This document shows positions 43,852 to 64,000 of a DNA stretch of 64,000 nt, one piece after another. Under the pieces are notes generated by a model, which did no database searches, was not told where the DNA came from, and saw only the letters and a program-made list of their open reading frames with translations. The position numbers and the translations under genes were made by a program. The stretch is taken from the NCBI GenBank assembly GCA_000497125.2, contig CM035318.1:1422001-1486000 (forward strand). The letters are read 5' to 3'. The stretch's first letter is position 1. Every line of letters begins with the position of its first letter. The DNA comes from Spironucleus salmonicida (Eukaryota; Fornicata; Diplomonadida; Hexamitidae).

Positions 43852-45036
43852 ATGGCTTTCCTAAAAATGAACAATATTTTATAATGTTTTTAATAGGCAT
43901 ACAATTTAAAATAATTAATGCTATAGGGAAAACTACCCTAAAACTATATTGATAAGATATATTCTTTTGTGAATCATGAATTCGACATCATCAAATTAAA
44001 ATTATTAAATACAAAACTATATCTAACATTGACCCAAGTTTTGCATAGTATGAATATTATGATTAATTTATCTGTGTTAATTGATGATTGTGAACGTATG
44101 AACTCACTGATAACTTATCAGTATTTATCATTGGCTATAAAATTACTTAATTCAACTAAAAATAAAAAAGAACTAAAACCGTTTATATTAAAATTTGATT
44201 ATATTTTTTTGGCACATAATAAAAATTTTGGTTAACTATTTTTCGCCATATATAAGAAAGATAAACTTTTAGAACAAATTATTTAAGCGAGAAAATAGAA
44301 AACTAGCTTTCTTATGGCTTATTATTTGTCTGATAAATCAATTCATATTTCATAGCAAATTATTAACTACATTTATTTCCACTAAATACATAATTGTATA
44401 AGAAAAGCTATATCATTAACTGATTTATTGTATCTAGCTAAATTTGAACTCACTGGGAATATTAATTTACTAAATAAAATTATCCCTTAGTAAGTAGACT
44501 TTATGTAAATTAATACTTTAAATTTTACAACATTTGATATAATTATTATAATAACGATATTTATAGACAAGATTACACCTTAAATATATGAAGTTGTCAT
44601 AAAATTTTACCCAATCCTTCAATAGACTGTACAAAATTTATTAAAAATTAAAAAAATATCTAATTTAACAATTATTTAATCTTCATTTATAAACTGGAAG
44701 TCTGACTTAATTGATATAAAAATAATTCAAAAATTTATACCAGATTTTTGTAAAGATATCAAAGGATATGTTTTAAATTAAGAAATAAAGATTTTAGAGA
44801 ATGGAATTATTAAGCAAACAACTTTTTCTAATTTAATCAATAGTAGCAAAAACGATAACTACAATGAATATATATTAAAAGCAAATATACTAAGAGCCCT
44901 AAAATAGTAAAACTTAACCATTTAAGAATTATAAAGATTATTTTTTATTGATGAGTAATAACTATAATAAATACTAAATCACCTTATTGAATAAAATTAT
45001 ATACAAATAAATAGTTAATATTTGGAAATTTTATGA
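43852..45036 (+). CDS. Helical protein with C-terminal winged-helix-like end
   Basis: 394 residues, mostly helical, very AT-biased. The last ~60 (ILKANILRALKQQNLTIQEL, then QLQQILNHLIEQNYIQI) look like a winged helix of the kind that ends cullins, APC2 or PCI proteins. No RING- or neddylation-site evidence. Function unknown. The TGA at 45034-45036 is one base from the stop of the opposite gene. Confidence 0.55.
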
Positions 45037-45037
45037 T

Positions 45038-46318
45038 TCACTCTAACTCAAATTTACTTCTAAGAAATATATATTATATAAAATCTTTACTCTTAACCGA
45101 TGGAATTTTTATAGTATTTTATATCATAGGTTAAAATTAAATTTATTTTATTAACTAAAGTTTTCCTAATTGACTTTATTATATACCTGGTTAAATTTGT
45201 TGTTATTTCCCTCTTACTTTAAGCTTAAGACGAATAACCTCTTATTTAAGAAATTAAACTATGTTAAACTCATCATCTTTTATTAATTAGGTTTTTGAAA
45301 TAATTTATTCATACTATTCTTAGAACTATTAACAATCAAATTCTATTACTAATTAAGTTTCAATGAGGAATAATGAAATATCGATTTTTTAATCTTTTAA
45401 CTAGTGAAACTAGAGTATACTATTGTATAAAATTTCATTTTTCAATATTTAATTAGACGCAAAACTTTACAAAATTATATCAAGAATTTACTATTAAAAA
45501 TCAAAAGATGCTAGAAGTTCCTCATCATTATAATACTCAACTTCGATTGGATTTTTTTAAGATAATTCTAAAAAATATTACGATAATAGCAATGTTAAAT
45601 TATACTAATAGTTATTCTAAGACAATTTGATTAGTTTTTATTTTAAAGAATAATAATGAGAATCTAGTTGCTAAATGCCGCTAATCTAAACAAAGGAATA
45701 AACTAAAAATGATGTAAAAAGTGAGTAATCAAAGGCAGTAATATCAAGTTGTTATTCATTCTTTTTAATAAATGTTATTTTATTAATGAATAAATTCTTG
45801 AAATAACTAGAAATTAATAACAATTAGTGGTTAAATAATAAATCTTATAGACTATATTAAAACTTAATCTATGAATCGGATAGATGTTATATGCTTTAAA
45901 TAAAATTAGTAATTTTAATATTTTCATTTAATCGAATATATTTAGTTAATAAATTACCATCAATTTATTACTACTATAATTAAGCTATTTATTATTCCTT
46001 TCTGATTAAAAGTTCTTTAAACAATATTATTTAATTAAGAGCTGATTTAAGCCCTTCTTCTAATTTTGTATATTAATTTTCACTTAAAATAGATAGTTCT
46101 GAAGGGAAATTAAGAGAAATTGACTACTAATCTTTTCTTAATAAATCAATTTACTATTTCAAAGTAGACACTTACTCATTTAATGAGATATTATCTAAAG
46201 AAACCTTATCATAATTCTATTCTAACGATTTTATTTTATTATTTTATAAAATTATTTGCTTCTTTAGAGCTAATATTTATTCTTATTATACCTTCTAGAT
46301 ATCTACATTTTACTGCAT
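45038..46318 (-). CDS. Coiled-coil-start hypothetical protein
   Basis: 426 residues. Residues ~1-120 are a Gln/Leu-rich coiled coil (ALKKQIILQNNKIKSLEQNY). The middle is helical, and the last ~60 contain IRLKLKVRGKQQQI and a basic segment. ATG 46316-46318, TCA 45038-45040. It is the last gene before the histone array. Not recognised. Confidence 0.6.
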
Positions 46319-46599
46319 TATAAAAATACATTTAAATTTATTATATATTTAATAATTAATAAGTATTATAATTTATTTAAAGCGAACCTGATTAACAATA
46401 CTTCATGATAATCTTATTAAAGCATATAGAGCTTATATTATCAGAATTTATAACCTTATTCTAACCTTAAACTCATAATTTTATGATATTTTATTTCATC
46501 ACCTTGCAATCCATAAGTTAAAAATAATCAATTATCATACTAAAGCAAAACTGTATAATAGTACTATTTGTCACGGCACTAGTTATCTCTGTATATGCT
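46319..46599. other. AT-rich gap between single-copy genes and H4 array
   Basis: Low-complexity AT-rich sequence with no convincing frame. Near 46570-46599 composition rises (CACGGCACTAG...), then the sequence passes directly into H4 coding DNA at 46600. Confidence 0.6.
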
Positions 46600-46674
46600 A
46601 AGACGGTGACGTCGCAGGACGTGGTGTACGCGCTGAAGCGCCAGGGCAAGACGCTCTACGGCTTCGGGATCTGA
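46600..46674 (+). pseudogene. Truncated H4 3' fragment at array edge
   Basis: Encodes only the last 24 residues of H4 ([20 protein letters not shown] then GFGI) plus TGA at 46672-46674. Upstream sequence is unrelated AT-rich DNA, so the array begins inside an H4 gene. It could be a real rearrangement breakpoint or an assembly join. Confidence 0.85.
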
Positions 46675-47959
46675 GTGATGCTATTCTTGTGGTACTCGTT
46701 GTGTGAGCGTGTGGTGCATAGGGCTTCCGTGTCTAGTGGGGTGGCGTACTTCCTGCACAGTGCCATAGTGCATATATGTAATATAATAATACTCATTCGG
46801 GCTTCCCGCAAGTATGATAGTGTATATAAATAATATAATACTAAGGACTCACGATTCCCGCAAAGTACCATACTGCCCGAGTATGGTATAATAGTACCAA
46901 ATTACGGCTCCCGCCCAAATGCCATACTTCACATATGCAACATTATAATCATAATCCTTCATGGCTCCCTTCCACTCGGCTGGTTTCCCATGGGCGGGAT
47001 GTCAAGGGGGCCTTGCCGAAGCCCTTGCCCTTGCCTTTTCCCAACGTCGGTTGGCATGCAGCGTATAATAATGTAATGTTGGTGTCCCTTCCGATATGTT
47101 AAAGTGGGAATAGGCAATATAATAAAGGGGATTTGCCCTTTCCCGCGAAGTATGATAGGGCATATATACGGTATTATAGTGAGTATTCCCGCTCCCCGCA
47201 AAGTACCATACTGCCCGAGTATGGTATAATAGTAGCAAATTACGCCTCCCGCCAAAACAGCATTCTGCACATAAATACGCGTGGGCGTATATAAATAATA
47301 CATATATGGCCTATAGCCACTATATGTGCGAGGTTCCTCTACCACCCCACACGGTATTCATATGCTCATAATGGCGAAGTGGGCCGTCGTCCACCTCGTC
47401 CCCACCAGAGGAGAGAACTCGCCCGGTTTGCCCTTGCCCTTGCCCTTCCCGGACGTCCGCAGGAGCTCGTCCGGAGGCTGGCAGTACCGCCCGGTCTCGC
47501 CCGGCGTGGCACGCACTTGCTTGGGCGGCGTGCGATGGCGCGAGATGACACCCGATGCATGGCACGGCGCGAGATCATCTTAGATGGCCTGCCTGCCGTG
47601 CCCCGCGCCCCGCGCCCATATGGGGCCTACGGGGCCGAGATATGGAGTTCCGGTGAAAATGAGTCTGCAGTTCTGCATATTGAACACGGTAAATTTAGTA
47701 GATAGATATTTGTATACATCACATATAACATACATACCTATATTCCATAAATCCCTATATGCATCTATATATACTTATACCTATATTCGCACACCGCAAC
47801 TACTTTCGTCACTATAACTATATATTATTCATATTAAAACTCGCTCCCGCCCCCGCCCCAACATATATATTTTATATAGCATATATAAGTATGGGTTCGC
47901 GAACCGATAGCTGGTTTCATCACCAACCTCATAATGCAGGAGTGAGGGTGCTATCAACA
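46675..47959. other. H4 array spacer 1
   Basis: 1285 bp between H4 copies. Contains two 9 bp-arm hairpins in diverged direct repeats, two inverted H4 N-terminal relics (47009-47047 and 47427-47456, minus strand), a GC-rich block (~47340-47640) and an AT-rich run before the H4 ATG. Open frames inside it are not convincing as genes. Confidence 0.8.
47700..47959 (+). promoter_or_regulatory. Likely H4 promoter region
   Basis: An AT-rich stretch with TATA-like runs (ATATATATTTTATATAG near 47861-47880) sits 80-100 bp before the H4 ATG. It is preceded by a short G/C-rich tract (CTCCCGCCCCCGCCCC near 47845) and followed by a TTCGCGAA palindrome near 47896. The same block precedes every H4 in the array. 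Function is inferred from position and conservation. Confidence 0.4.
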
Positions 47960-50900
47960 ATGTCTGGAAAAGGAAAGGGAAAAGGTTTTGGAAAGGCGAC
48001 AGACTCGGAGAACACTAGCGATAGTGTAGACCCTGTTGCTCTCACCGCCTAATAAATTCGTATTAGAAGCCTGTTCAAACAGGCACCTGCTCTACCCCAA
48101 CCCCAACCCCAGTCGATCGCTAGTCACATTTCTTCTACCATGAAGAAGCAATAGGCACCTCCAACGTCTAATGGTGACCCCTCGACTTTGACATATTCCC
48201 CCTTCACATAAGTTTCAAGCGTGAGACTGTTCAAGCAGGGCCAGGCAAGCCGGGAGGCTCCTGTGCTCTCAGATAAGACCAATAAATCTATCATGAGCTT
48301 CGTGAAAGCAAGAGAAGAAGAAAGAGCCCCGCAAGGTGCTCCGGACACTTCGGCTGCCGACACTCAGAATCGCGCGCAATTCCCTTCCACACAAATTCAC
48401 GGGGAAACTACAGCTGCGCTCGTTAACTGCCAAGACGAGTAAGCTTAGGAGGTAGCTAGTCTAGCTGCCCCTAACGCAGCGGAAGTGACTGAACAACCGC
48501 CCTCCTCATAGGTTGCCAGTTAAGAAGGGGCCCCAACCGATTAACCTAGCCTCTAACCAGAGAGCTAAGAGGAAAGCGAGGCCCCGCCTCGCCCGGATCC
48601 CCCAGATGCTCCGGACTACGGGATAGACCCACCAATTCCCAGGCTACCCTCACAAAACATACCGGTAGAGCCCAGAGTCAGACCTCAACTGAATTCAATC
48701 ACCCGGTATGGTATCGTCCACGAGACGAGATCTCAGACAAGACTTATTCCTGAGACACGTGCCCCAAGCACAACAGAAAGTAACGAACACGCTAGACCAA
48801 GGAACCCTGACAAGCCTTTTGAATGTCAGGCATGCACCTTCGCGTCGTCCGACCCCACGAGCCTGCTGAGACATCACGCGCTCACGAGAGGCGGATAGCA
48901 CGATATAAAGTTCCCGCTACTTAGATACAAAGAAGTTTACGAAGACCCCAAACTCTTCAGATTCTACTGTGGAATCTGTAATCACCCTTTTACGAAGAAA
49001 TTAAATGTCATGCTCCACCTAATGGATGGAAAATGCAAGAACAAGTAAGGAATGACAAACGAAGCTGCCCAATTGCTAGTAAGAAATAGAGATGTCTATA
49101 GCCTCGAACTAGAGGAATAGCTGGCAAAAGCATCGGCCGCCAAGGCGGCAAGAGCGAAGAGTATAGCAGAATAAATAACTGCACCCAAAATAGGACTTCC
49201 ACCGGAAGCGACGATCAACCTATCTCCTTTAGGTTGCGCTACGGACAAGAAGAATTTAGCATTACGTTTTATCCAGATGAAACTGGAGATTGAAAACGGA
49301 GCTGACATCCTAGACGCCTTTAACTAATTCATAGGCGCATTCAGAAGAAAACAGGCATGTAACACCAGACGCGATACCAATCAAAAATAGATAGATTTCT
49401 GCTTTTAGAGAGGACAGACTGGAAAGGCATGGAACCTTATTAAGGAAAATTAGAACAAGTAGAACCTATCCCCAGAAAACGCCAGCTCCAGACCGGACCT
49501 GGTTAGAGAGTTATTTTAGGAAAACCGGAAACCCGAATATGAATCGGCATCGCGGTAGGGATCAGTAAGAACAGCGCTGCAAGCGCCAACGGCAGAAGAG
49601 ATTACGAAGATAATCCTATAGTACCGGGATGGCAAAGCAGGCGGCCCGAGTGGCATTCTTCCAGCCCACCTGAAAGAACTTGAGAAGTCTCATCACATCT
49701 CAAACATTCTTGCGAAGGTATACAAACTAATACTTGATACACCATCCCTAGTGAACAAGACTAGGAGACTATTCGAATACCGGATAATCTTCATCCCAAA
49801 GAACGCGACCAAGTTTAGACCGATTTGCATACAGGAGTTATTCCTATAAGTCCTGCACAAAGCACTGGCAGAGAAGATGAAGCAGCAACTAACCCTAGGC
49901 AATTATCAATTCGCCTTTACCAAAAACGCTCTCCTCAGAGCCAAATATTAAGCTAATATCATGCTTAAGAATGGGCTCACCCTTACTTCCCTTGACGTAC
50001 GAAACGCCTTTAACGCCGTACCTCATAAAGTAATCGAAGAAGAACTCGTGAAAGCCGGCCTAGCACCGGAAACCAACCAATACATCCAAGCCTTTTTGAT
50101 GGCGCGGAATGCGGAGGGGTTGGAAAGGCTAGGCACCGGCGTCCCCCAAGGGGATCCATTGTCCATGATGCTATTCTGTGTTGTAATGCGCCCGATCCTA
50201 GATCGGCTCGCAGGCAAATACAAGGTTATCGCATCGTACGCGGACGATGTCCTGATAGGTCACGATTCAGGAGTAAACCTCAAAGACTGTGAAAGCGTCT
50301 TTGCAGACTACGGGCTAACCCTGTCTGTGGAGAAATGCATAACAGCCTCCCCCACCCAAGCGATTAAATTCGTTGGGTAAGAATTTAAGGACAAACCGAT
50401 ACCGTTAACAGATCACTTGCTCCAAACCGCTCAGGATGCCTTCCTACTCCTCGAGCAATCGAAGCTCGGGACCACCCAATAACGGTTCCAGATGTTTGTA
50501 CAATGTATTGTTCCCTCAGTCAACTATGGCCCACTTGTGGACGTCACGGATGACTAGGAAGCCGGATATACGAAGATAGACGACAGCCTTGTTGCCACCA
50601 CCTCGCTGATAGCGGGACTAAGCATAAAGATTGAAACTCTATTGGATAGCTAGATCCGGGGTGGAATGAACGTGATCACACCTGGTCGCTTCTACCCACT
50701 CATGACCGCAGCACGCGATGAATTCCATGAGAACAATCACTGCGTCTTTAGAAATATCAGGGAGAAAATCAAAGAACTCGTTCCGGACGATCCAGATCCT
50801 GGACGCCCGATGATTTTCCCCTGCATCTTAGGAGCCACCAGGCTCCCTGGACAGTCTGTCCAGTATCTCTTGAACTCGGCTTTCGGCCCGGTAGCGACAC

Positions 50901-51520
50901 CCAGTAAAACCCATTTGTGTACGCTATGCGGTACCCCTAAGATTGGAGATCACGACCAAAAATGCAATAGAAATAGCGGAATCCGAATAGTTAGACACAA
51001 CAAGGCTGTCTCAGCCGCGATGAACTGCCTAGCGAAGTACGAGCCCCGTGAAATAACACGTCAATAAGCTCCTGAAGGAAAGTTTTATCCGGACTTCAGA
51101 ATCATTGTAAGTAAAATCCTGACAGTAGACCTAGATGTCACGTTTACTTCGCAAGAGAATATGGACGCGAAATTTGCAGAAAAGGTTAGAAAGCATAAAT
51201 TGCCTGACCCTAACCAGACTATAATCCCAATGGTTATCTCACATGAACTTTAAATTCATCGCGAGACACTCAAGTTGTTGAAATTCCACTTCCCGGAGTT
51301 CAACTACAGGAAATTTATGGAAGCGGTGGGAACTGCGACCTGTTTCTATAGACAGGACTCAGTTCGAAACAACACTGCACGATAGATCATAGCTCTCCAG
51401 GATAGGAACTATGGTTTAGAGGAAGACGTTGCAATACGTCTTAATTGGAGAAATGCTGCGAAGAATAACAATCGCAGGCGCCAGCACGCCAGAGGGAGTG
51501 CTGTCGCACCCGGGCCGTGA
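47960..51520 (+). CDS. R2-like element ORF, in frame with H4 start codon (copy 1)
   Basis: Open from the H4 ATG for 1186 residues; the first ATG inside the element is 48140 (1126 residues). Positions from the H4 Met: C2H2-like finger with CQAC at ~289; second finger CGIC ... HLMDGKC at ~337-359; RT motif A LDVRNAFNAVPH (~678); motif B QGDPLS (~730); catalytic YADD (760-763); CCHC CTLCGTPKIGDHDQKC (~987); PD ... DLD of the restriction-like endonuclease (PDF at ~1044, VDLDVTF at ~1056). TGA at 51518-51520. Many Gln are TAA/TAG, so the frame works only in the host code. All RT and endonuclease hallmarks that I can judge are intact. Translation may start at the H4 ATG or at 48140. Confidence 0.85.
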
Positions 51521-51610
51521 GGCCAGGGAAAACAAGAAAACCCCCCCCGACAGGGGCAGTAAAGATCCCATATACGCAATGAGGAATGGCAGTACTCGAG
51601 TGATCTTTTA

Positions 51611-51642
<32 letters not shown>
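48000..51642 (+). mobile_element. R2-like (RLE-type) non-LTR retrotransposon in H4, copy 1
   Basis: 3643 bp insertion ending in a 31-nt A run. It has no terminal repeats, one long ORF, and a ~90 bp 3' UTR with a run of eight C. Domain order (zinc fingers, reverse transcriptase, CCHC, restriction-like endonuclease) is that of the R2/NeSL group, which inserts by target-primed reverse transcription at fixed sites. The site here is inside the H4 coding sequence. The full-length ORF and poly(A) suggest recent activity. The second copy at 57976 is nearly identical. Confidence 0.9.
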
Positions 51643-51643
<1 letters not shown>

Positions 51644-52086
51644 AAATCCGAGAAGGATGCACTCACAGGCATCACCAAGCCTGCCATACGCAGGTTGGCG
51701 CGCAGAGGTGGCGTGAAGAGGATCTCGTCCACGATCTACCCCCAGACGCGCGAGGTGCTGAAGGCGTTCCTGGACGTGGTCATCAGGGACTCGCTGACCT
51801 ACACTGAGCACGCGCAGCGCAAGACGGTGACGTCGCAGGACGTGGTGTACGCGCTGAAGCGCCAGGGCAAGACGCTCTACGGCTTCGGGATCTGAGTGAT
51901 GCTATTCTTGTGGTACTCGTTGTGTGAGCGTGTGGTGCATAGGGCTTCCGTGTCTAGTGGGGTGGCGTACTTCCTGCACAGTGCCATAGTGCATATATGT
52001 AATATAATAATACTCATTCGGGCTTCCCGCAAGTATGATAGTGTATATAAATAATATAATACTAAGGACTCACGATTCCCGCAAAG

Positions 52087-52109
52087 TACCATACTGCCCG
52101 AGTATGGTA
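52087..52109. repeat. Hairpin 1 of spacer (9 bp arms, 5 nt loop)
   Basis: TACCATACT-GCCCG-AGTATGGTA is a perfect inverted repeat. It lies inside a ~55 bp block (CCCGCAAAG ... CAAATTACG) that recurs 338 bp downstream and, diverged, elsewhere in the spacer. About 190 bp after the H4 stop, so it is too far away and unlike the metazoan histone 3' stem-loop. Confidence 0.75.
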
Positions 52110-52229
52110 TAATAGTACCAAATTACGGCTCCCGCCCAAATGCCATACTTCACATATGCAACATTATAATCATAATCCTTCATGGCTCCCTTCCACTCGG
52201 CTGGTTTCCCATGGGCGGGATGTCAAGGG

Positions 52230-52268
52230 GGCCTTGCCGAAGCCCTTGCCCTTGCCTTTTCCCAACGT
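52230..52268 (-). pseudogene. Inverted H4 N-terminal relic A
   Basis: On the minus strand 13 codons read [13 protein letters not shown], matching H4 residues 1-13 ([13 protein letters not shown]), with ATG changed to ACG and TCT to TTG. Codons differ from the gene (GGC/AAG instead of GGA/AAA), so it is not a recent copy. Similarity stops after GKA, the same codon where the retrotransposon enters H4. Equivalent positions: 47009, 53815, 55400, 56985, 62206 and 63791. Confidence 0.7.
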
Positions 52269-52424
52269 CGGTTGGCATGCAGCGTATAATAATGTAATGT
52301 TGGTGTCCCTTCCGATATGTTAAAGTGGGAATAGGCAATATAATAAAGGGGATTTTCCCTTTCCCGCGAAGTATGATAGGGCATATATACGGTATTATAG
52401 TGAGTATTCCCGCTCCCCGCAAAG

Positions 52425-52447
52425 TACCATACTGCCCGAGTATGGTA
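52425..52447. repeat. Hairpin 2 of spacer (same arms)
   Basis: Second copy of the TACCATACT/AGTATGGTA inverted repeat. In the unit at 62403-62423 and in the last partial unit the loop reads GGCCG instead of GCCCG, while the arms are unchanged. Confidence 0.75.
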
Positions 52448-52647
52448 TAATAGTAGCAAATTACGCCTCCCGCCAAAACAGCATTCTGCACATAAATACG
52501 CGTGGGCGTATATAAATAATACATATATGGCCTATAGCCACTATATGTGCGAGGTTCCTCTACCACCCCACACGGTATTCATATGCTCATAATGGCGAAG
52601 TGGGCCGTCGTCCACCTCGTCCCCACCAGAGGAGAGAACTCGCCCGG

Positions 52648-52677
52648 TTTGCCCTTGCCCTTGCCCTTCCCGGACGT
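52648..52677 (-). pseudogene. Inverted H4 N-terminal relic B
   Basis: On the minus strand ten codons read [10 protein letters not shown], like H4 [10 protein letters not shown] with ATG changed to ACG and TCT to TCC. It sits in the GC-rich block. The preceding codons (PGETGRYCQPPDELLR in the same frame) faintly recall histone H3 'PG...RYQ..TELLR', which is too weak to call. Equivalent copies: 47427, 54233, 55818, 57403 and 62624. Confidence 0.55.
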
Positions 52678-53180
52678 CCGCAGGAGCTCGTCCGGAGGCT
52701 GGCAGTACCGCCCGGTCTCGCCCGGCGTGGCACGCACTTGCTTGGGCGGCGTGCGATGGCGCGAGATGACACCCGATGCATGGCACGGCGCGAGATCATC
52801 TTAGATGGCCTGCCTGCCGTGCCCCGCGCCCCGCGCCCATATGGGGCCTACGGGGCCGAGATATGGAGTTCCGGTGAAAATGAGTCTGCAGTTCTGCATA
52901 TTGAACACGGTAAATTTAGTAGATAGATATTTGTATACATCACATATAACATACATACCTATATTCCATAAATCCCTATATGCATCTATATATACTTATA
53001 CCTATATTCGCACACCGCAACCACTTTCGTCACTATAACTATATATTATTCATATTAAAACTCGCTCCCGCCCCCGCCCCAACATATATATTTTATATAG
53101 CATATATAAGTATGGGTTCGCGAACCGATAGCTGGTTTCATCACCAACCTCATAATGCAGGAGTGAGGGTGCTATCAACA

Positions 53181-53480
53181 ATGTCTGGAAAAGGAAAGGG
53201 AAAAGGTTTTGGAAAGGCGAAAAGACACAAATCCGAGAAGGATGCACTCACAGGCATCACCAAGCCTGCCATACGCAGGTTGGCGCGCAGAGGTGGCGTG
53301 AAGAGGATCTCGTCCACGATCTACCCCCAGACGCGCGAGGTGCTGAAGGCGTTCCTGGACGTGGTCATCAGGGACTCGCTGACCTACACTGAGCACGCGC
53401 AGCGCAAGACGGTGACGTCGCAGGACGTGGTGTACGCGCTGAAGCGCCAGGGCAAGACGCTCTACGGCTTCGGGATCTGA
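53181..53480 (+). CDS. H4: Histone H4 (intact copy 1)
   Basis: 99 residues, stop TGA. The core matches H4 well: [20 protein letters not shown], then [30 protein letters not shown], and [18 protein letters not shown]. The N-terminal tail is short and unusual ([20 protein letters not shown]), about four residues shorter than the usual 103-residue H4, with KRHK around the K16/K20 region kept. The first 13 codons use AT-ending forms (GGA, AAA) while the rest is GC-rich with G/C-ending codons and no TAA/TAG. It packages DNA in the nucleosome with H3. I take the ATG at MSGKG as start although an in-frame frame opens further upstream. Confidence 0.97.
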
Positions 53481-54765
53481 GTGATGCTATTCTTGTGGTA
53501 CTCGTTGTGTGAGCGTGTGGTGCATAGGGCTTCCGTGTCTAGTGGGGTGGCGTACTTCCTGCACAGTGCCATAGTGCATATATGTAATATAATAATACTC
53601 ATTCGGGCTTCCCGCAAGTATGATAGTGTATATAAATAATATAATACTAAGGACTCACGATTCCCGCAAAGTACCATACTGCCCGAGTATGGTATAATAG
53701 TACCAAATTACGGCTCCCGCCCAAATGCCATACTTCACATATGCAACATTATAATCATAATCCTTCATGGCTCCCTTCCACTCGGCTGGTTTCCCATGGG
53801 CGGGATGTCAAGGGGGCCTTGCCGAAGCCCTTGCCCTTGCCTTTTCCCAACGTCGGTTGGCATGCAGCGTATAATAATGTAATGTTGGTGTCCCTTCCGA
53901 TATGTTAAAGTGGGAATAGGCAATATAATAAAGGGGATTTTCCCTTTCCCGCGAAGTATGATAGGGCATATATACGGTATTATAGTGAGTATTCCCGCTC
54001 CCCGCAAAGTACCATACTGCCCGAGTATGGTATAATAGTAGCAAATTACGCCTCCCGCCAAAACAGCATTCTGCACATAAATACGCGTGGGCGTATATAA
54101 ATAATACATATATGGCCTATAGCCACTATATGTGCGAGGTTCCTCTACCACCCCACACGGTATTCATATGCTCATAATGGCGAAGTGGGCCGTCGTCCAC
54201 CTCGTCCCCACCAGAGGAGAGAACTCGCCCGGTTTGCCCTTGCCCTTGCCCTTCCCGGACGTCCGCAGGAGCTCGTCCGGAGGCTGGCAGTACCGCCCGG
54301 TCTCGCCCGGCGTGGCACGCACTTGCTTGGGCGGCGTGCGATGGCGCGAGATGACACCCGATGCATGGCACGGCGCGAGATCATCTTAGATGGCCTGCCT
54401 GCCGTGCCCCGCGCCCCGCGCCCATATGGGGCCTACGGGGCCGAGATATGGAGTTCCGGTGAAAATGAGTCTGCAGTTCTGCATATTGAACACGGTAAAT
54501 TTAGTAGATAGATATTTGTATACATCACATATAACATACATACCTATATTCCATAAATCCCTATATGCATCTATATATACTTATACCTATATTCGCACAC
54601 CGCAACCACTTTCGTCACTATAACTATATATTATTCATATTAAAACTCGCTCCCGCCCCCGCCCCAACATATATATTTTATATAGCATATATAAGTATGG
54701 GTTCGCGAACCGATAGCTGGTTTCATCACCAACCTCATAATGCAGGAGTGAGGGTGCTATCAACA
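53481..54765. other. H4 array spacer 3
   Basis: 1285 bp; same content as spacer 2 (hairpins, relics at 53815-53853 and 54233-54262, promoter block). Confidence 0.8.
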
Positions 54766-55065
54766 ATGTCTGGAAAAGGAAAGGGAAAAGGTTTTGGAAA
54801 GGCGAAAAGACACAAATCCGAGAAGGATGCACTCACAGGCATCACCAAGCCTGCCATACGCAGGTTGGCGCGCAGAGGTGGCGTGAAGAGGATCTCGTCC
54901 ACGATCTACCCCCAGACGCGCGAGGTGCTGAAGGCGTTCCTGGACGTGGTCATCAGGGACTCGCTGACCTACACTGAGCACGCGCAGCGCAAGACGGTGA
55001 CGTCGCAGGACGTGGTGTACGCGCTGAAGCGCCAGGGCAAGACGCTCTACGGCTTCGGGATCTGA
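54766..55065 (+). CDS. H4: Histone H4 (intact copy 2)
   Basis: Encodes the same 99-residue protein as the copy at 53181, exactly 1585 bp downstream of it. Confidence 0.97.
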
Positions 55066-56350
55066 GTGATGCTATTCTTGTGGTACTCGTTGTGTGAGCG
55101 TGTGGTGCATAGGGCTTCCGTGTCTAGTGGGGTGGCGTACTTCCTGCACAGTGCCATAGTGCATATATGTAATATAATAATACTCATTCGGGCTTCCCGC
55201 AAGTATGATAGTGTATATAAATAATATAATACTAAGGACTCACGATTCCCGCAAAGTACCATACTGCCCGAGTATGGTATAATAGTACCAAATTACGGCT
55301 CCCGCCCAAATGCCATACTTCACATATGCAACATTATAATCATAATCCTTCATGGCTCCCTTCCACTCGGCTGGTTTCCCATGGGCGGGATGTCAAGGGG
55401 GCCTTGCCGAAGCCCTTGCCCTTGCCTTTTCCCAACGTCGGTTGGCATGCAGCGTATAATAATGTAATGTTGGTGTCCCTTCCGATATGTTAAAGTGGGA
55501 ATAGGCAATATAATAAAGGGGATTTTCCCTTTCCCGCGAAGTATGATAGGGCATATATACGGTATTATAGTGAGTATTCCCGCTCCCCGCAAAGTACCAT
55601 ACTGCCCGAGTATGGTATAATAGTAGCAAATTACGCCTCCCGCCAAAACAGCATTCTGCACATAAATACGCGTGGGCGTATATAAATAATACATATATGG
55701 CCTATAGCCACTATATGTGCGAGGTTCCTCTACCACCCCACACGGTATTCATATGCTCATAATGGCGAAGTGGGCCGTCGTCCACCTCGTCCCCACCAGA
55801 GGAGAGAACTCGCCCGGTTTGCCCTTGCCCTTGCCCTTCCCGGACGTCCGCAGGAGCTCGTCCGGAGGCTGGCAGTACCGCCCGGTCTCGCCCGGCGTGG
55901 CACGCACTTGCTTGGGCGGCGTGCGATGGCGCGAGATGACACCCGATGCATGGCACGGCGCGAGATCATCTTAGATGGCCTGCCTGCCGTGCCCCGCGCC
56001 CCGCGCCCATATGGGGCCTACGGGGCCGAGATATGGAGTTCCGGTGAAAATGAGTCTGCAGTTCTGCATATTGAACACGGTAAATTTAGTAGATAGATAT
56101 TTGTATACATCACATATAACATACATACCTATATTCCATAAATCCCTATATGCATCTATATATACTTATACCTATATTCGCACACCGCAACCACTTTCGT
56201 CACTATAACTATATATTATTCATATTAAAACTCGCTCCCGCCCCCGCCCCAACATATATATTTTATATAGCATATATAAGTATGGGTTCGCGAACCGATA
56301 GCTGGTTTCATCACCAACCTCATAATGCAGGAGTGAGGGTGCTATCAACA
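55066..56350. other. H4 array spacer 4
   Basis: 1285 bp, same content as spacer 2. Confidence 0.8.
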
Positions 56351-56650
56351 ATGTCTGGAAAAGGAAAGGGAAAAGGTTTTGGAAAGGCGAAAAGACACAA
56401 ATCCGAGAAGGATGCACTCACAGGCATCACCAAGCCTGCCATACGCAGGTTGGCGCGCAGAGGTGGCGTGAAGAGGATCTCGTCCACGATCTACCCCCAG
56501 ACGCGCGAGGTGCTGAAGGCGTTCCTGGACGTGGTCATCAGGGACTCGCTGACCTACACTGAGCACGCGCAGCGCAAGACGGTGACGTCGCAGGACGTGG
56601 TGTACGCGCTGAAGCGCCAGGGCAAGACGCTCTACGGCTTCGGGATCTGA
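56351..56650 (+). CDS. H4: Histone H4 (intact copy 3)
   Basis: Encodes the same protein as the copies at 53181 and 54766; the unit before it is 1585 bp. Confidence 0.97.
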
Positions 56651-57935
56651 GTGATGCTATTCTTGTGGTACTCGTTGTGTGAGCGTGTGGTGCATAGGGC
56701 TTCCGTGTCTAGTGGGGTGGCGTACTTCCTGCACAGTGCCATAGTGCATATATGTAATATAATAATACTCATTCGGGCTTCCCGCAAGTATGATAGTGTA
56801 TATAAATAATATAATACTAAGGACTCACGATTCCCGCAAAGTACCATACTGCCCGAGTATGGTATAATAGTACCAAATTACGGCTCCCGCCCAAATGCCA
56901 TACTTCACATATGCAACATTATAATCATAATCCTTCATGGCTCCCTTCCACTCGGCTGGTTTCCCATGGGCGGGATGTCAAGGGGGCCTTGCCGAAGCCC
57001 TTGCCCTTGCCTTTTCCCAACGTCGGTTGGCATGCAGCGTATAATAATGTAATGTTGGTGTCCCTTCCGATATGTTAAAGTGGGAATAGGCAATATAATA
57101 AAGGGGATTTTCCCTTTCCCGCGAAGTATGATAGGGCATATATACGGTATTATAGTGAGTATTCCCGCTCCCCGCAAAGTACCATACTGCCCGAGTATGG
57201 TATAATAGTAGCAAATTACGCCTCCCGCCAAAACAGCATTCTGCACATAAATACGCGTGGGCGTATATAAATAATACATATATGGCCTATAGCCACTATA
57301 TGTGCGAGGTTCCTCTACCACCCCACACGGTATTCATATGCTCATAATGGCGAAGTGGGCCGTCGTCCACCTCGTCCCCACCAGAGGAGAGAACTCGCCC
57401 GGTTTGCCCTTGCCCTTGCCCTTCCCGGACGTCCGCAGGAGCTCGTCCGGAGGCTGGCAGTACCGCCCGGTCTCGCCCGGCGTGGCACGCACTTGCTTGG
57501 GCGGCGTGCGATGGCGCGAGATGACACCCGATGCATGGCACGGCGCGAGATCATCTTAGATGGCCTGCCTGCCGTGCCCCGCGCCCCGCGCCCATATGGG
57601 GCCTACGGGGCCGAGATATGGAGTTCCGGTGAAAATGAGTCTGCAGTTCTGCATATTGAACACGGTAAATTTAGTAGATAGATATTTGTATACATCACAT
57701 ATAACATACATACCTATATTCCATAAATCCCTATATGCATCTATATATACTTATACCTATATTCGCACACCGCAACCACTTTCGTCACTATAACTATATA
57801 TTATTCATATTAAAACTCGCTCCCGCCCCCGCCCCAACATATATATTTTATATAGCATATATAAGTATGGGTTCGCGAACCGATAGCTGGTTTCATCACC
57901 AACCTCATAATGCAGGAGTGAGGGTGCTATCAACA
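56651..57935. other. H4 array spacer 5
   Basis: 1285 bp, same content as spacer 2. Confidence 0.8.
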
Positions 57936-60900
57936 ATGTCTGGAAAAGGAAAGGGAAAAGGTTTTGGAAAGGCGACAGACTCGGAGAACACTAGCGATAG
58001 TGTAGACCCTGTTGCTCTCACCGCCTAATAAATTCGTATTAGAAGCCTGTTCAAACAGGCACCTGCTCTACCCCAACCCCAACCCCAGTCGATCGCTAGT
58101 CACATTTCTTCTACCATGAAGAAGCATTAGGCACCTCCAACGTCTAATGGTGACCCCTCGACTTTGACATATTCCCCCTTCACATAAGTTTCAAGCGTGA
58201 GACTGTTCAAGCAGGGCCAGGCAAGCCGGGAGGCTCCTGTGCTCTCAGATAAGACCAATAAATCTATCATGAGCTTCGTGAAAGCAAGAGAAGAAGAAAG
58301 AGCCCCGCAAGGTGCTCCGGACACTTCGGCTGCCGACACTCAGAATCGCGCGCAATTCCCTTCCACACAAATTCACGGGGAAACTACAGCTGCGCTCGTT
58401 AACTGCCAAGACGAGTAAGCTTAGGAGGTAGCTAGTCTAGCTGCCCCTAACGCAGCGGAAGTGACTGAACAACCGCCCTCCTCATAGGTTGCCAGTTAAG
58501 AAGGGGCCCCAACCGATTAACCTAGCCTCTAACCAGAGAGCTAAGAGGAAAGCGAGGCCCCGCCTCGCCCGGATCCCCCAGATGCTCCGGACTACGGGAT
58601 AGACCCACCAATTCCCAGGCTACCCTCACAAAACATACCGGTAGAGCCCAGAGTCAGACCTCAACTGAATTCAATCACCCGGTATGGTATCGTCCACGAG
58701 ACGAGATCTCAGACAAGACTTATTCCTGAGACACGTGCCCCAAGCACAACAGAAAGTAACGAACACGCTAGACCAAGGAACCCTGACAAGCCTTTTGAAT
58801 GTCAGGCATGCACCTTCGCGTCGTCCGACCCCACGAGCCTGCTGAGACATCACGCGCTCACGAGAGGCGGATAGCACGATATAAAGTTCCCGCTACTTAG
58901 ATACAAAGAAGTTTACGAAGACCCCAAACTCTTCAGATTCTACTGTGGAATCTGTAATCACCCTTTTACGAAGAAATTAAATGTCATGCTCCACCTAATG
59001 GATGGAAAATGCAAGAACAAGTAAGGAATGACAAACGAAGCTGCCCAATTGCTAGTAAGAAATAGAGATGTCTATAGCCTCGAACTAGAGGAATAGCTGG
59101 CAAAAGCATCGGCCGCCAAGGCGGCAAGAGCGAAGAGTATAGCAGAATAAATAACTGCACCCAAAATAGGACTTCCACCGGAAGCGACGATCAACCTATC
59201 TCCTTTAGGTTGCGCTACGGACAAGAAGAATTTAGCATTACGTTTTATCCAGATGAAACTGGAGATTGAAAACGGAGCTGACATCCTAGACGCCTTTAAC
59301 TAATTCATAGGCGCATTCAGAAGAAAACAGGCATGTAACACCAGACGCGATACCAATCAAAAATAGATAGATTTCTGCTTTTAGAGAGGACAGACTGGAA
59401 AGGCATGGAACCTTATTAAGGAAAATTAGAACAAGTAGAACCTATCCCCAGAAAACGCCAGCTCCAGACCGGACCTGGTTAGAGAGTTATTTTAGGAAAA
59501 CCGGAAACCCGAATATGAATCGGCATCGCGGTAGGGATCAGTAAGAACAGCGCTGCAAGCGCCAACGGCAGAAGAGATTACGAAGATAATCCTATAGTAC
59601 CGGGATGGCAAAGCAGGCGGCCCGAGTGGCATTCTTCCAGCCCACCTGAAAGAACTTGAGAAGTCTCATCACATCTCAAACATTCTTGCGAAGGTATACA
59701 AACTAATACTTGATACACCATCCCTAGTGAACAAGACTAGGAGACTATTCGAATACCGGATAATCTTCATCCCAAAGAACGCGACCAAGTTTAGACCGAT
59801 TTGCATACAGGAGTTATTCCTATAAGTCCTGCACAAAGCACTGGCAGAGAAGATGAAGCAGCAACTAACCCTAGGCAATTATCAATTCGCCTTTACCAAA
59901 AACGCTCTCCTCAGAGCCAAATATTAAGCTAATATCATGCTTAAGAATGGGCTCACCCTTACTTCCCTTGACGTACGAAACGCCTTTAACGCCGTACCTC
60001 ATAAAGTAATCGAAGAAGAACTCGTGAAAGCCGGCCTAGCACCGGAAACCAACCAATACATCCAAGCCTTTTTGATGGCGCGGAATGCGGAGGGGTTGGA
60101 AAGGCTAGGCACCGGCGTCCCCCAAGGGGATCCATTGTCCATGATGCTATTCTGTGTTGTAATGCGCCCGATCCTAGATCGGCTCGCAGGCAAATACAAG
60201 GTTATCGCATCGTACGCGGACGATGTCCTGATAGGTCACGATTCAGGAGTAAACCTCAAAGACTGTGAAAGCGTCTTTGCAGACTACGGGCTAACCCTGT
60301 CTGTGGAGAAATGCATAACAGCCTCCCCCACCCAAGCGATTAAATTCGTTGGGTAAGAATTTAAGGACAAACCGATACCGTTAACAGATCACTTGCTCCA
60401 AACCGCTCAGGATGCCTTCCTAATCCTCGAGCAATCGAAGCTCGGGACCACCCAATAACGGTTCCAGATGTTTGTACAATGTATTGTTCCCTCAGTCAAC
60501 TATGGCCCACTTGTGGACGTCACGGATGACTAGGAAGCCGGATATACGAAGATAGACGACAGCCTTGTTGCCACCACCTCGCTGATAGCGGGACTAAGCA
60601 TAAAGATTGAAACTCTATTGGATAGCTAGATCCGGGGTGGAATGAACGTGATCACACCTGGTCGCTTCTACCCACTCATGACCGCAGCACGCGATGAATT
60701 CCATGAGAACAATCACTGCGTCTTTAGAAATATCAGGGAGAAAATCAAAGAACTCGTTCCGGACGATCCAGATCCTGGACGCCCGATGATTTTCCCCTGC
60801 ATCTTAGGAGCCACCAGGCTCCCTGGACAGTCTGTCCAGTATCTCTTGAACTCGGCTTTCGGCCCGGTAGCGACACCCAGTAAAACCCATTTGTGTACGC

Positions 60901-61496
60901 TATGCGGTACCCCTAAGATTGGAGATCACGACCAAAAATGCAATAGAAATAGCGGAATCCGAATAGTTAGACACAACAAGGCTGTCTCAGCCGCGATGAA
61001 CTGCCTAGCGAAGTACGAGCCCCGTGAAATAACACGTCAATAAGCTCCTGAAGGAAAGTTTTATCCGGACTTCAGAATCATTGTAAGTAAAATCCTGACA
61101 GTAGACCTAGATGTCACGTTTACTTCGCAAGAGAATATGGACGCGAAATTTGCAGAAAAGGTTAGAAAGCATAAATTGCCTGACCCTAACCAGACTATAA
61201 TCCCAATGGTTATCTCACATGAACTTTAAATTCATCGCGAGACACTCAAGTTGTTGAAATTCCACTTCCCGGAGTTCAACTACAGGAAATTTATGGAAGC
61301 GGTGGGAACTGCGACCTGTTTCTATAGACAGGACTCAGTTCGAAACAACACTGCACGATAGATCATAGCTCTCCAGGATAGGAACTATGGTTTAGAGGAA
61401 GACGTTGCAATACGTCTTAATTGGAGAAATGCTGCGAAGAATAACAATCGCAGGCGCCAGCACGCCAGAGGGAGTGCTGTCGCACCCGGGCCGTGA
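57936..61496 (+). CDS. R2-like element ORF, in frame with H4 start codon (copy 2)
   Basis: Same 1186-codon frame as copy 1 (first internal ATG at 58116; TGA 61494-61496). YADD, QGDPLS, both zinc fingers, CCHC and the endonuclease residues are unchanged. Being intact in both copies suggests recent spread or recent unit duplication. Confidence 0.85.
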
Positions 61497-61618
61497 GGCC
61501 AGGGAAAACAAGAAAACCCCCCCCCCGACAGGGGCAGTAAAGATCCCATATACGCAATGAGGAATGGCAGTACTCGAGTGATCTTTTACAAAAAAAAAAA
61601 AAAAAAAAAAAAAAAAAA
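57976..61618 (+). mobile_element. R2-like non-LTR retrotransposon in H4, copy 2
   Basis: 3643 bp, almost identical to copy 1. Differences seen: A/T at 48154 vs 58130 (Gln to His), C/A at 50443 vs 60419 (Leu to Ile), C run of 8 vs 10 in the 3' UTR, and A tail of 31 vs 29. Three intact H4 genes lie between the two copies. Confidence 0.9.
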
Positions 61619-61871
61619 CAAATCCGAGAAGGATGCACTCACAGGCATCACCAAGCCTGCCATACGCAGGTTGGCGCGCAGAGGTGGCGTGAAGAGGATC
61701 TCGTCCACGATCTACCCCCAGACGCGCGAGGTGCTGAAGGCGTTCCTGGACGTGGTCATCAGGGACTCGCTGACCTACACTGAGCACGCGCAGCGCAAGA
61801 CGGTGACGTCGCAGGACGTGGTGTACGCGCTGAAGCGCCAGGGCAAGACGCTCTACGGCTTCGGGATCTGA

Positions 61872-63156
61872 GTGATGCTATTCTTGTGGTACTCGTTGTG
61901 TGAGCGTGTGGTGCATAGGGCTTCCGTGTCTAGTGGGGTGGCGTACTTCCTGCACAGTGCCATAGTGCATATATGTAATATAATAATACTCATTCGGGCT
62001 TCCCGCAAGTATGATAGTGTATATAAATAATATAATACTAAGGACTCACGATTCCCGCAAAGTACCATACTGCCCGAGTATGGTATAATAGTACCAAATT
62101 ACGGCTCCCGCCCAAATGCCATACTTCACATATGCAACATTATAATCATAATCCTTCATGGCTCCCTTCCACTCGGCTGGTTTCCCATGGGCGGGATGTC
62201 AAGGGGGCCTTGCCGAAGCCCTTGCCCTTGCCTTTTCCCAACGTCGGTTGGCATGCAGCGTATAATAATGTAATGTTGGTGTCCCTTCCGATATGTTAAA
62301 GTGGGAATAGGCAATATAATAAAGGGGATTTTCCCTTTCCCGCGAAGTATGATAGGGCATATATACGGTATTATAGTGAGTATTCCCGCTCCCCGCAAAG
62401 TACCATACTGGCCGAGTATGGTATAATAGTAGCAAATTACGCCTCCCGCCAAAACAGCATTCTGCACATAAATACGCGTGGGCGTATATAAATAATACAT
62501 ATATGGCCTATAGCCACTATATGTGCGAGGTTCCTCTACCACCCCACACGGTATTCATATGCTCATAATGGCGAAGTGGGCCGTCGTCCACCTCGTCCCC
62601 ACCAGAGGAGAGAACTCGCCCGGTTTGCCCTTGCCCTTGCCCTTCCCGGACGTCCGCAGGAGCTCGTCCGGAGGCTGGCAGTACCGCCCGGTCTCGCCCG
62701 GCGTGGCACGCACTTGCTTGGGCGGCGTGCGATGGCGCGAGATGACACCCGATGCATGGCACGGCGCGAGATCATCTTAGATGGCCTGCCTGCCGTGCCC
62801 CGCGCCCCGCGCCCATATGGGGCCTACGGGGCCGAGATATGGAGTTCCGGTGAAAATGAGTCTGCAGTTCTGCATATTGAACACGGTAAATTTAGTAGAT
62901 AGATATTTGTATACATCACATATAACATACATACCTATATTCCATAAATCCCTATATGCATCTATATATACTTATACCTATATTCGCACACCGCAACCAC
63001 TTTCGTCACTATAACTATATATTATTCATATTAAAACTCGCTCCCGCCCCCGCCCCAACATATATATTTTATATAGCATATATAAGTATGGGTTCGCGAA
63101 CCGATAGCTGGTTTCATCACCAACCTCATAATGCAGGAGTGAGGGTGCTATCAACA
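61872..63156. other. H4 array spacer 6
   Basis: 1285 bp, same as spacer 2 except the first-repeat/second-repeat loop change (GGCCG near 62409-62413). Confidence 0.8.
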
Positions 63157-63456
63157 ATGTCTGGAAAAGGAAAGGGAAAAGGTTTTGGAAAGGCGAAAAG
63201 ACACAAATCCGAGAAGGATGCACTCACAGGCATCACCAAGCCTGCCATACGCAGGTTGGCGCGCAGAGGTGGCGTGAAGAGGATCTCGTCCACGATCTAC
63301 CCCCAGACGCGCGAGGTGCTGAAGGCGTTCCTGGACGTGGTCATCAGGGACTCGCTGACCTACACTGAGCACGCGCAGCGCAAGACGGTGACGTCGCAGG
63401 ACGTGGTGTACGCGCTGAAGCGCCAGGGCAAGACGCTCTACGGCTTCGGGATCTGA
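63157..63456 (+). CDS. H4: Histone H4 (intact copy 4)
   Basis: Encodes the same 99-residue protein as the other intact copies, 5221 bp after the interrupted gene at 57936. Confidence 0.97.
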
Positions 63457-64000
63457 GTGATGCTATTCTTGTGGTACTCGTTGTGTGAGCGTGTGGTGCA
63501 TAGGGCTTCCGTGTCTAGTGGGGTGGCGTACTTCCTGCACAGTGCCATAGTGCATATATGTAATATAATAATACTCATTCGGGCTTCCCGCAAGTATGAT
63601 AGTGTATATAAATAATATAATACTAAGGACTCACGATTCCCGCAAAGTACCATACTGCCCGAGTATGGTATAATAGTACCAAATTACGGCTCCCGCCCAA
63701 ATGCCATACTTCACATATGCAACATTATAATCATAATCCTTCATGGCTCCCTTCCACTCGGCTGGTTTCCCATGGGCGGGATGTCAAGGGGGCCTTGCCG
63801 AAGCCCTTGCCCTTGCCTTTTCCCAACGTCGGTTGGCATGCAGCGTATAATAATGTAATGTTGGTGTCCCTTCCGATATGTTAAAGTGGGAATAGGCAAT
63901 ATAATAAAGGGGATTTTCCCTTTCCCGCGAAGTATGATAGGGCATATATACGGTATTATAGTGAGTATTCCCGCTCCCCGCAAAGTACCATACTGGCCGA
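63457..64000. other. H4 array spacer 7, cut by window edge
   Basis: First 544 bp of the next spacer, including relic A at 63791-63829. It shares the GGCCG loop variant with spacer 6. Confidence 0.8.

Follow-up and report, generated by a model that had tools for sequence, protein, structure and literature searches.

In Spironucleus salmonicida, a hexamitine diplomonad and a parasite of salmon, a full-length non-LTR retrotransposon interrupts the histone H4 gene directly after codon 13 (H4 ATG at 47960). The element is probably a target-specific non-LTR retrotransposon of the Giardia type that encodes a restriction-like endonuclease (RLE) and resides at a single position of the H4 coding sequence; it would then be an H4-specific variant among the non-LTR elements that carry an endonuclease and insert at defined targets. 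The analysed stretch of 64,000 nucleotides (the window) belongs to contig C3. The features discussed below are as follows, in window positions.

47960..51520, + strand: open frame with UAR read as Gln, 1186 codons, TGA stop at 51518-51520 (frame analysis)
47960..47998, + strand: H4 codons 1-13, read in the frame of the element ORF; the fusion protein probably begins here (P0002 begins at the same ATG)
47999..51642, + strand: retrotransposon copy 1, poly(A) included (junctions compared with H4)
48824..49036, + strand: two N-terminal zinc-finger-like motifs (pattern and weak profile matches)
49793..50383, + strand: RT core, RVT_1 with YADD (profile match, translation)
50918..51193, + strand: CCHC knuckle and R-H / PD...DLD...K restriction-like endonuclease (motifs, profile alignment)
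51521..51611, + strand: short 3' UTR, with AGTGA at 51599, 8 nt ahead of the A tail (sequence; PMC3916229 for the signal)
51612..51642, + strand: poly(A) tail of 31 (sequence; 28-34 among the six copies)
51643..51895, + strand: rest of the interrupted H4 gene, minus 6-8 bp (comparison with the empty site)
53181..53480, + strand: intact H4 gene in the next array unit (1585 bp), target site empty
57975..61618, + strand: retrotransposon copy 2, in another array unit (junctions compared with H4)

A preliminary description of this DNA had placed a full-length element at one exact nucleotide after H4 codon 13, and the junction was confirmed (47999-51642). Six copies were found in the assembly, four on C3 and two on contig C30, all within the H4 array. 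When the copies and their flanks were mapped, as that description had proposed, all six were full length, lay in the H4 orientation and entered H4 at the same nucleotide; none was found outside H4 or elsewhere in H4. Poly(A) and single-site junctions were observed in every copy, and neither a 5'-truncated copy nor a junction variant was present among the six. Each insertion had removed 6-8 bp of H4 relative to the empty site, the range arising because A's are common to both junctions, and the target was not duplicated. Apart from tail length, the copies differed from one another by three substitutions and, in the 3' UTR, one 2-bp indel. Those on C3, a contig of 1.816 Mb, were located at ~1.47-1.50 Mb, a position that is not telomeric. 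As the array makes up ~0.34% of the assembly (limits set by eye), six copies at one nucleotide are above chance if the copies are independent.

The array unit was 1585 bp long, composed of a 1285-bp spacer and a 300-bp H4 gene, and an occupied unit measured ~5.2 kb. When the last 49 residues of H4 were used as a genome query, all 18 scored candidates matched (16 full, 2 partial), every one of them in the C3 array or on C30. C3 carried 13 H4 gene starts, 4 of which were occupied, and a truncated H4 end at the left array edge, giving 9 intact and 5 broken H4 genes with four RTs. On C30, two of the three H4 starts were occupied. The empty target site was found 10 times with up to 3 mismatches allowed; all 10 matches were exact and lay in the array or on C30. 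The intact H4 genes (n = 10) were identical in sequence to one another, and that 10 of the 16 H4 copies were intact fits the earlier suggestion that the histone array may serve as a safe multicopy target. The C3 counts agree with what passages of a 2022 paper describe for chromosome 3 of this species, namely nine H4 and five pseudo H4 copies with four RTs interspersed (PMC9509377).

Other properties of the region were also recorded. At its left edge (window position 46600), the array starts within the 3' end of an H4 gene, which is joined there to unrelated sequence. Over window positions 44001-64000, G+C was ~25% in the flanking genes and reached ~50% in the array and the element, a rise for which biased gene conversion within the array is one candidate cause. 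The H4 tail of the gene at 53181-53480 deviates from what we take to be the usual eukaryotic H4 tail.

Searching the whole genome with the element DNA gave 6 matches out of 6 scored, and the element protein gave 6 matches among 16 candidates (best only scored), all of them in the array or on C30. The RVT_1 family, with the best candidates scored, likewise gave 6 of 6 matches, which were the six copies. Thus, no copy or recognisable remnant outside H4 was found in 14.47 Mb by DNA, protein and RVT_1 searches with the best candidates scored, within a reach below which old remnants may fall, and no other RT was found in the genome among the best candidates scored in the RVT_1 search. In other hexamitids, a 139-aa query for UAR-interrupted fragments of relatives returned 19 candidates, none of them at E 0.01. 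An assembly artefact that fused a repeat to H4 is extremely improbable. The region is repeat-rich and one fragment (C30) is unplaced; however, the identical junction occurred six times across two contigs, and passages of the 2022 long-read paper (PMC9509377) also place RTs within the H4 array, probably in the same assembly and so not as a fully independent observation.

The six copies could have arisen from one insertion, since they are nearly identical and the array spacers recombine. According to this explanation, a single chance insertion in one H4 unit was multiplied by unequal crossing-over or gene conversion, and the element has no preference for H4; we regard this as unlikely. The spacers contained three variable positions in four combinations, and each spacer type occurred with occupied units. 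Two spacer markers were present in all four mutual combinations, showing that recombination does occur in the array. At a marker 198 bp upstream of the site, the occupied units had 3 T and 3 C and the empty units 5 T and 5 C, indicating that occupation was unlinked to this marker; either recurrent insertion or recombination within 198 bp would give this result. C30 (17,628 bp, unplaced; loci L034 and L035) showed a shorter alternative arrangement of the left array edge. It had 10,994 bp in common with the left array edge of C3 at 99.97%, with the left flank and the first occupied unit as in C3, followed by an occupied unit in place of the empty one of C3. C30 is probably a shortened recombinant or another allele of this edge, and because of this appearance its two copies and those on C3 may not be separate events. 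Such a rearranged edge also suits multiplication of one insertion. Against it, no copy or remnant was found elsewhere in the 14.47 Mb, an uncommon situation for a non-specific element that is active and has intact frames, and occupied units spanned all four spacer types without linkage to the 198-bp marker, although recombination could also do so. The case for H4 specificity rests mainly on the failure to find copies elsewhere, the class of the element and the uniform site.

The RT with YADD, the CCHC knuckle, the PD...DLD endonuclease and the poly(A) named in the preliminary description were all recovered. The element protein matched RVT_1 with E 3.6e-23, as is characteristic of an RLE-type non-LTR element, the C-terminal CCHC and PD...D/K endonuclease were identified by motifs and profile alignment, and the tail was A31. 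Compared with the R2 endonuclease in solved structures, the endonuclease gave i-Evalues of 1.5e-5 and 1.9e-5 for two chains and 0.018-0.28 for three others. Two zinc fingers had also been claimed. The first (C2HC) was found by pattern at residues 336-358 of P0001; the second (C2H2-like) was seen as weak zinc-finger matches only, at residues ~267-316, with a best E of 0.0099.

TGA is the sole stop codon of Spironucleus salmonicida according to passages of PMC3916229, and many long frames in the window were open only when UAA and UAG were read as Gln. The 1173 codons of the element frame included 32 UAA/UAG codons, and the frame is open because the host reads these as Gln. There was no in-frame TGA, whereas the two other forward frames contained 26 and 20; at their rate the chance of finding none is ~8e-11. 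We considered a decayed element and rejected it, since UAR as Gln accounts for the stops and the in-frame TGA count was 0. The element frame, with 1173 codons in each copy, was unbroken from the H4 ATG in all six, and the 1186-codon ORF read from this ATG would encode a fusion of H4 tail, RT and endonuclease. Its first codon is also where the database protein P0002 (1186 aa) starts.

The first ATG inside the element was at 48140, 47 codons in. Codon usage over these 47 codons scored 0.034 in frame 0 and 0.046 in frame 1, values that do not decide their coding status. The A content upstream of the ATG was 0.4 for the H4 ATG, 0.1 for the internal ATG at 48140 and 0.4 for that at 48293; the H4 value fell within the range of 14 ORFs in the window (0.3-0.8). 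Judged from the sequence, translation likely starts at the H4 ATG, because this ATG is the first, is in frame and is where P0002 starts. One copy of an N-terminal motif, [LIVM]F[KR][KRQS], lay upstream of the first internal ATG and would favour the H4 start; within the first 140 residues it occurred in only two of ten Giardia-type proteins tested (P0003 and P0004). The motif was discarded as proof of the H4 start, the pattern having been picked after the sequences were seen.

Six intact frames that are in frame with H4, in copies that account for every RVT_1 match found in the genome, would also suit a domesticated H4-RT fusion gene kept for a host function, e.g., chromatin or telomere maintenance. 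However, the poly(A) tail, the adjacent empty sites and the complete endonuclease are marks of a mobile element, and recent amplification by itself accounts for the intact frames. Domestication is therefore highly improbable.

The element had been called R2-like, and as to kinship the protein matches and the best trees did not bear this out. The closest proteins were Giardia-type reverse transcriptases with ~25-31% identity when the best 7997 candidates by word sharing were scored; among these, P0003 had 31% identity with 86% of the query covered. Names among the closest proteins included Giardia lamblia P15 RT (P0005) and Giardia duodenalis reverse transcriptase/endonuclease, which are presumably GilM/GilT (GENIE in one nomenclature). 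A 30-row RT tree was built from 35 proteins minus P0002 (the element's own copy), P0009, P0020, P0027-P0030 and P0034, plus three R2 stretches; a 23-row tree further omitted P0007, P0008, P0021, P0025, P0031, P0032 and P0033. The element grouped with 13 Giardia-type proteins in the 23-row tree (support 96/96) and fell in the Giardia-type group, P0021 included, in the 30-row tree (support 93/84). The best trees of both sizes separated the element RT from R2. The element branch was long, its letter composition was unlike the rest of the alignment, and the AU test rejected neither an R2-type placement (p = 0.195) nor a placement with the P0010 group (p = 0.198). A SVNYGPLVD block following the RT, which was recognised as a marker in the present analysis and is not an established criterion, was shared by the element, P0021 and P0020; it was present in 10 of the 13 Giardia-type rows and in none of 18 other proteins. 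Together these comparisons suggest that the nearest relatives of the element RT are the Giardia-type proteins rather than R2, the AU test not being decisive.

P0021 (776 aa, unnamed, source ena) appeared as a distant relative with SVNYGPLVD that is neither Giardia-type nor the present element; it is possibly another lineage of the same kind. The C termini of many Giardia-type proteins had a recurrent LPPIFK/R or LPSFFK-like ending, which we take to resemble a PCNA-binding box.

AGTGA is described as the putative poly(A) signal of Spironucleus salmonicida, with tails ~14 bp downstream, in passages of PMC3916229. Its position 8 nt before the A tail of the element fits an RNA 3' end made by the host machinery, and would be consistent with retrotransposon RNA finished in this way. 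An Rfam search of 46600-52200, which covers the element and its flanks, gave no match with E up to 5, and a 5' ribozyme known to Rfam was discarded as a candidate. H4-derived sequence in the element ends was also discarded, as the matches were no better than shuffles: the H4 scores were reached by 1755 and 997 of 2000 protein shuffles and by 167 and 131 of 200 DNA shuffles.

An H4-specific element could use its site as follows. Transcription would proceed from the H4 promoter and translation from the H4 ATG, giving a protein with an N-terminal H4 tail, and the end of the transcript would be set by the host AGTGA signal and then polyadenylated. The zinc fingers of the protein may bind H4 DNA. 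The bottom strand would be nicked beside CAAATCC, where poly(A) would prime reverse transcription, and a top-strand cut 6-8 bp upstream would lead to the loss of that stretch. The uniform, full-length 5' ends would be accounted for if the H4 leader of the RNA anneals to the target upstream. Meanwhile, intact units would continue to supply H4, and copies would turn over by recombination in the array. We put forward more tentatively, at somewhat short of even chances, that the protein-coding histone gene is both the obligate home and the expression cassette of the element, which would have no start of its own, borrow the H4 promoter and start codon, and make an H4-tail-RT-endonuclease fusion that recognises H4 DNA.

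Known RLE elements have their homes in ribosomal, spliced-leader, snRNA and tRNA genes, telomeres and simple repeats; NeSL and CRE/SLACS target spliced-leader genes. The Giardia LINE-like RT/endonucleases have zinc fingers, RT, CCHC and PD...D endonuclease in common with the present element, and most of them have SVNYGPLVD. Passages of PMC10999387 describe GilM and GilT as telomeric, whereas the present element is in a histone coding exon, in frame with H4. R2 (28S rDNA), as published abstracts describe it, likewise combines zinc fingers, RT and RLE with one site of a tandem multicopy gene. It differs in that the RT of the present element groups with Giardia-type proteins (the AU test not being decisive), that the target is protein-coding H4 in six of the six copies found and not 28S rDNA, and that the 5' end of the element had no Rfam ribozyme match (E up to 5, 46600-52200). 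Insertion of R2 also brings a small target deletion. Utopia is an RLE element in U2 snRNA genes, even where these are low-copy host genes, according to passages of PMC4640811. Utopia, NeSL and CRE/SLACS thus reside in host genes too, but in non-coding RNA genes rather than an H4 exon.

The RTs of PMC9509377 are from the same locus, and the passages of that paper seen here make no mention of a position inside H4 at one nucleotide, a common frame or target specificity. The author of the preliminary description knew of no described member with a histone-gene target. The literature matches listed (titles and abstract starts) included no non-LTR element with specificity for a histone gene, in agreement with that statement; the presence of RTs in the H4 array has been in print since 2022 (PMC9509377).

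A histone coding exon as the home of such an element would be new, extending target choice to an essential multicopy protein gene. In-frame fusion to a host protein is not known to us from Utopia, NeSL or CRE/SLACS and, to our knowledge, no other retrotransposon of the RLE class is specific for a coding exon. If the proposed expression is true, a host start codon is reused by a genomic parasite. The element would offer a testable system for the origin of target specificity and for its tolerance by a host with ~ten intact H4 copies, and its protein would be a natural one directed at a new site in DNA.
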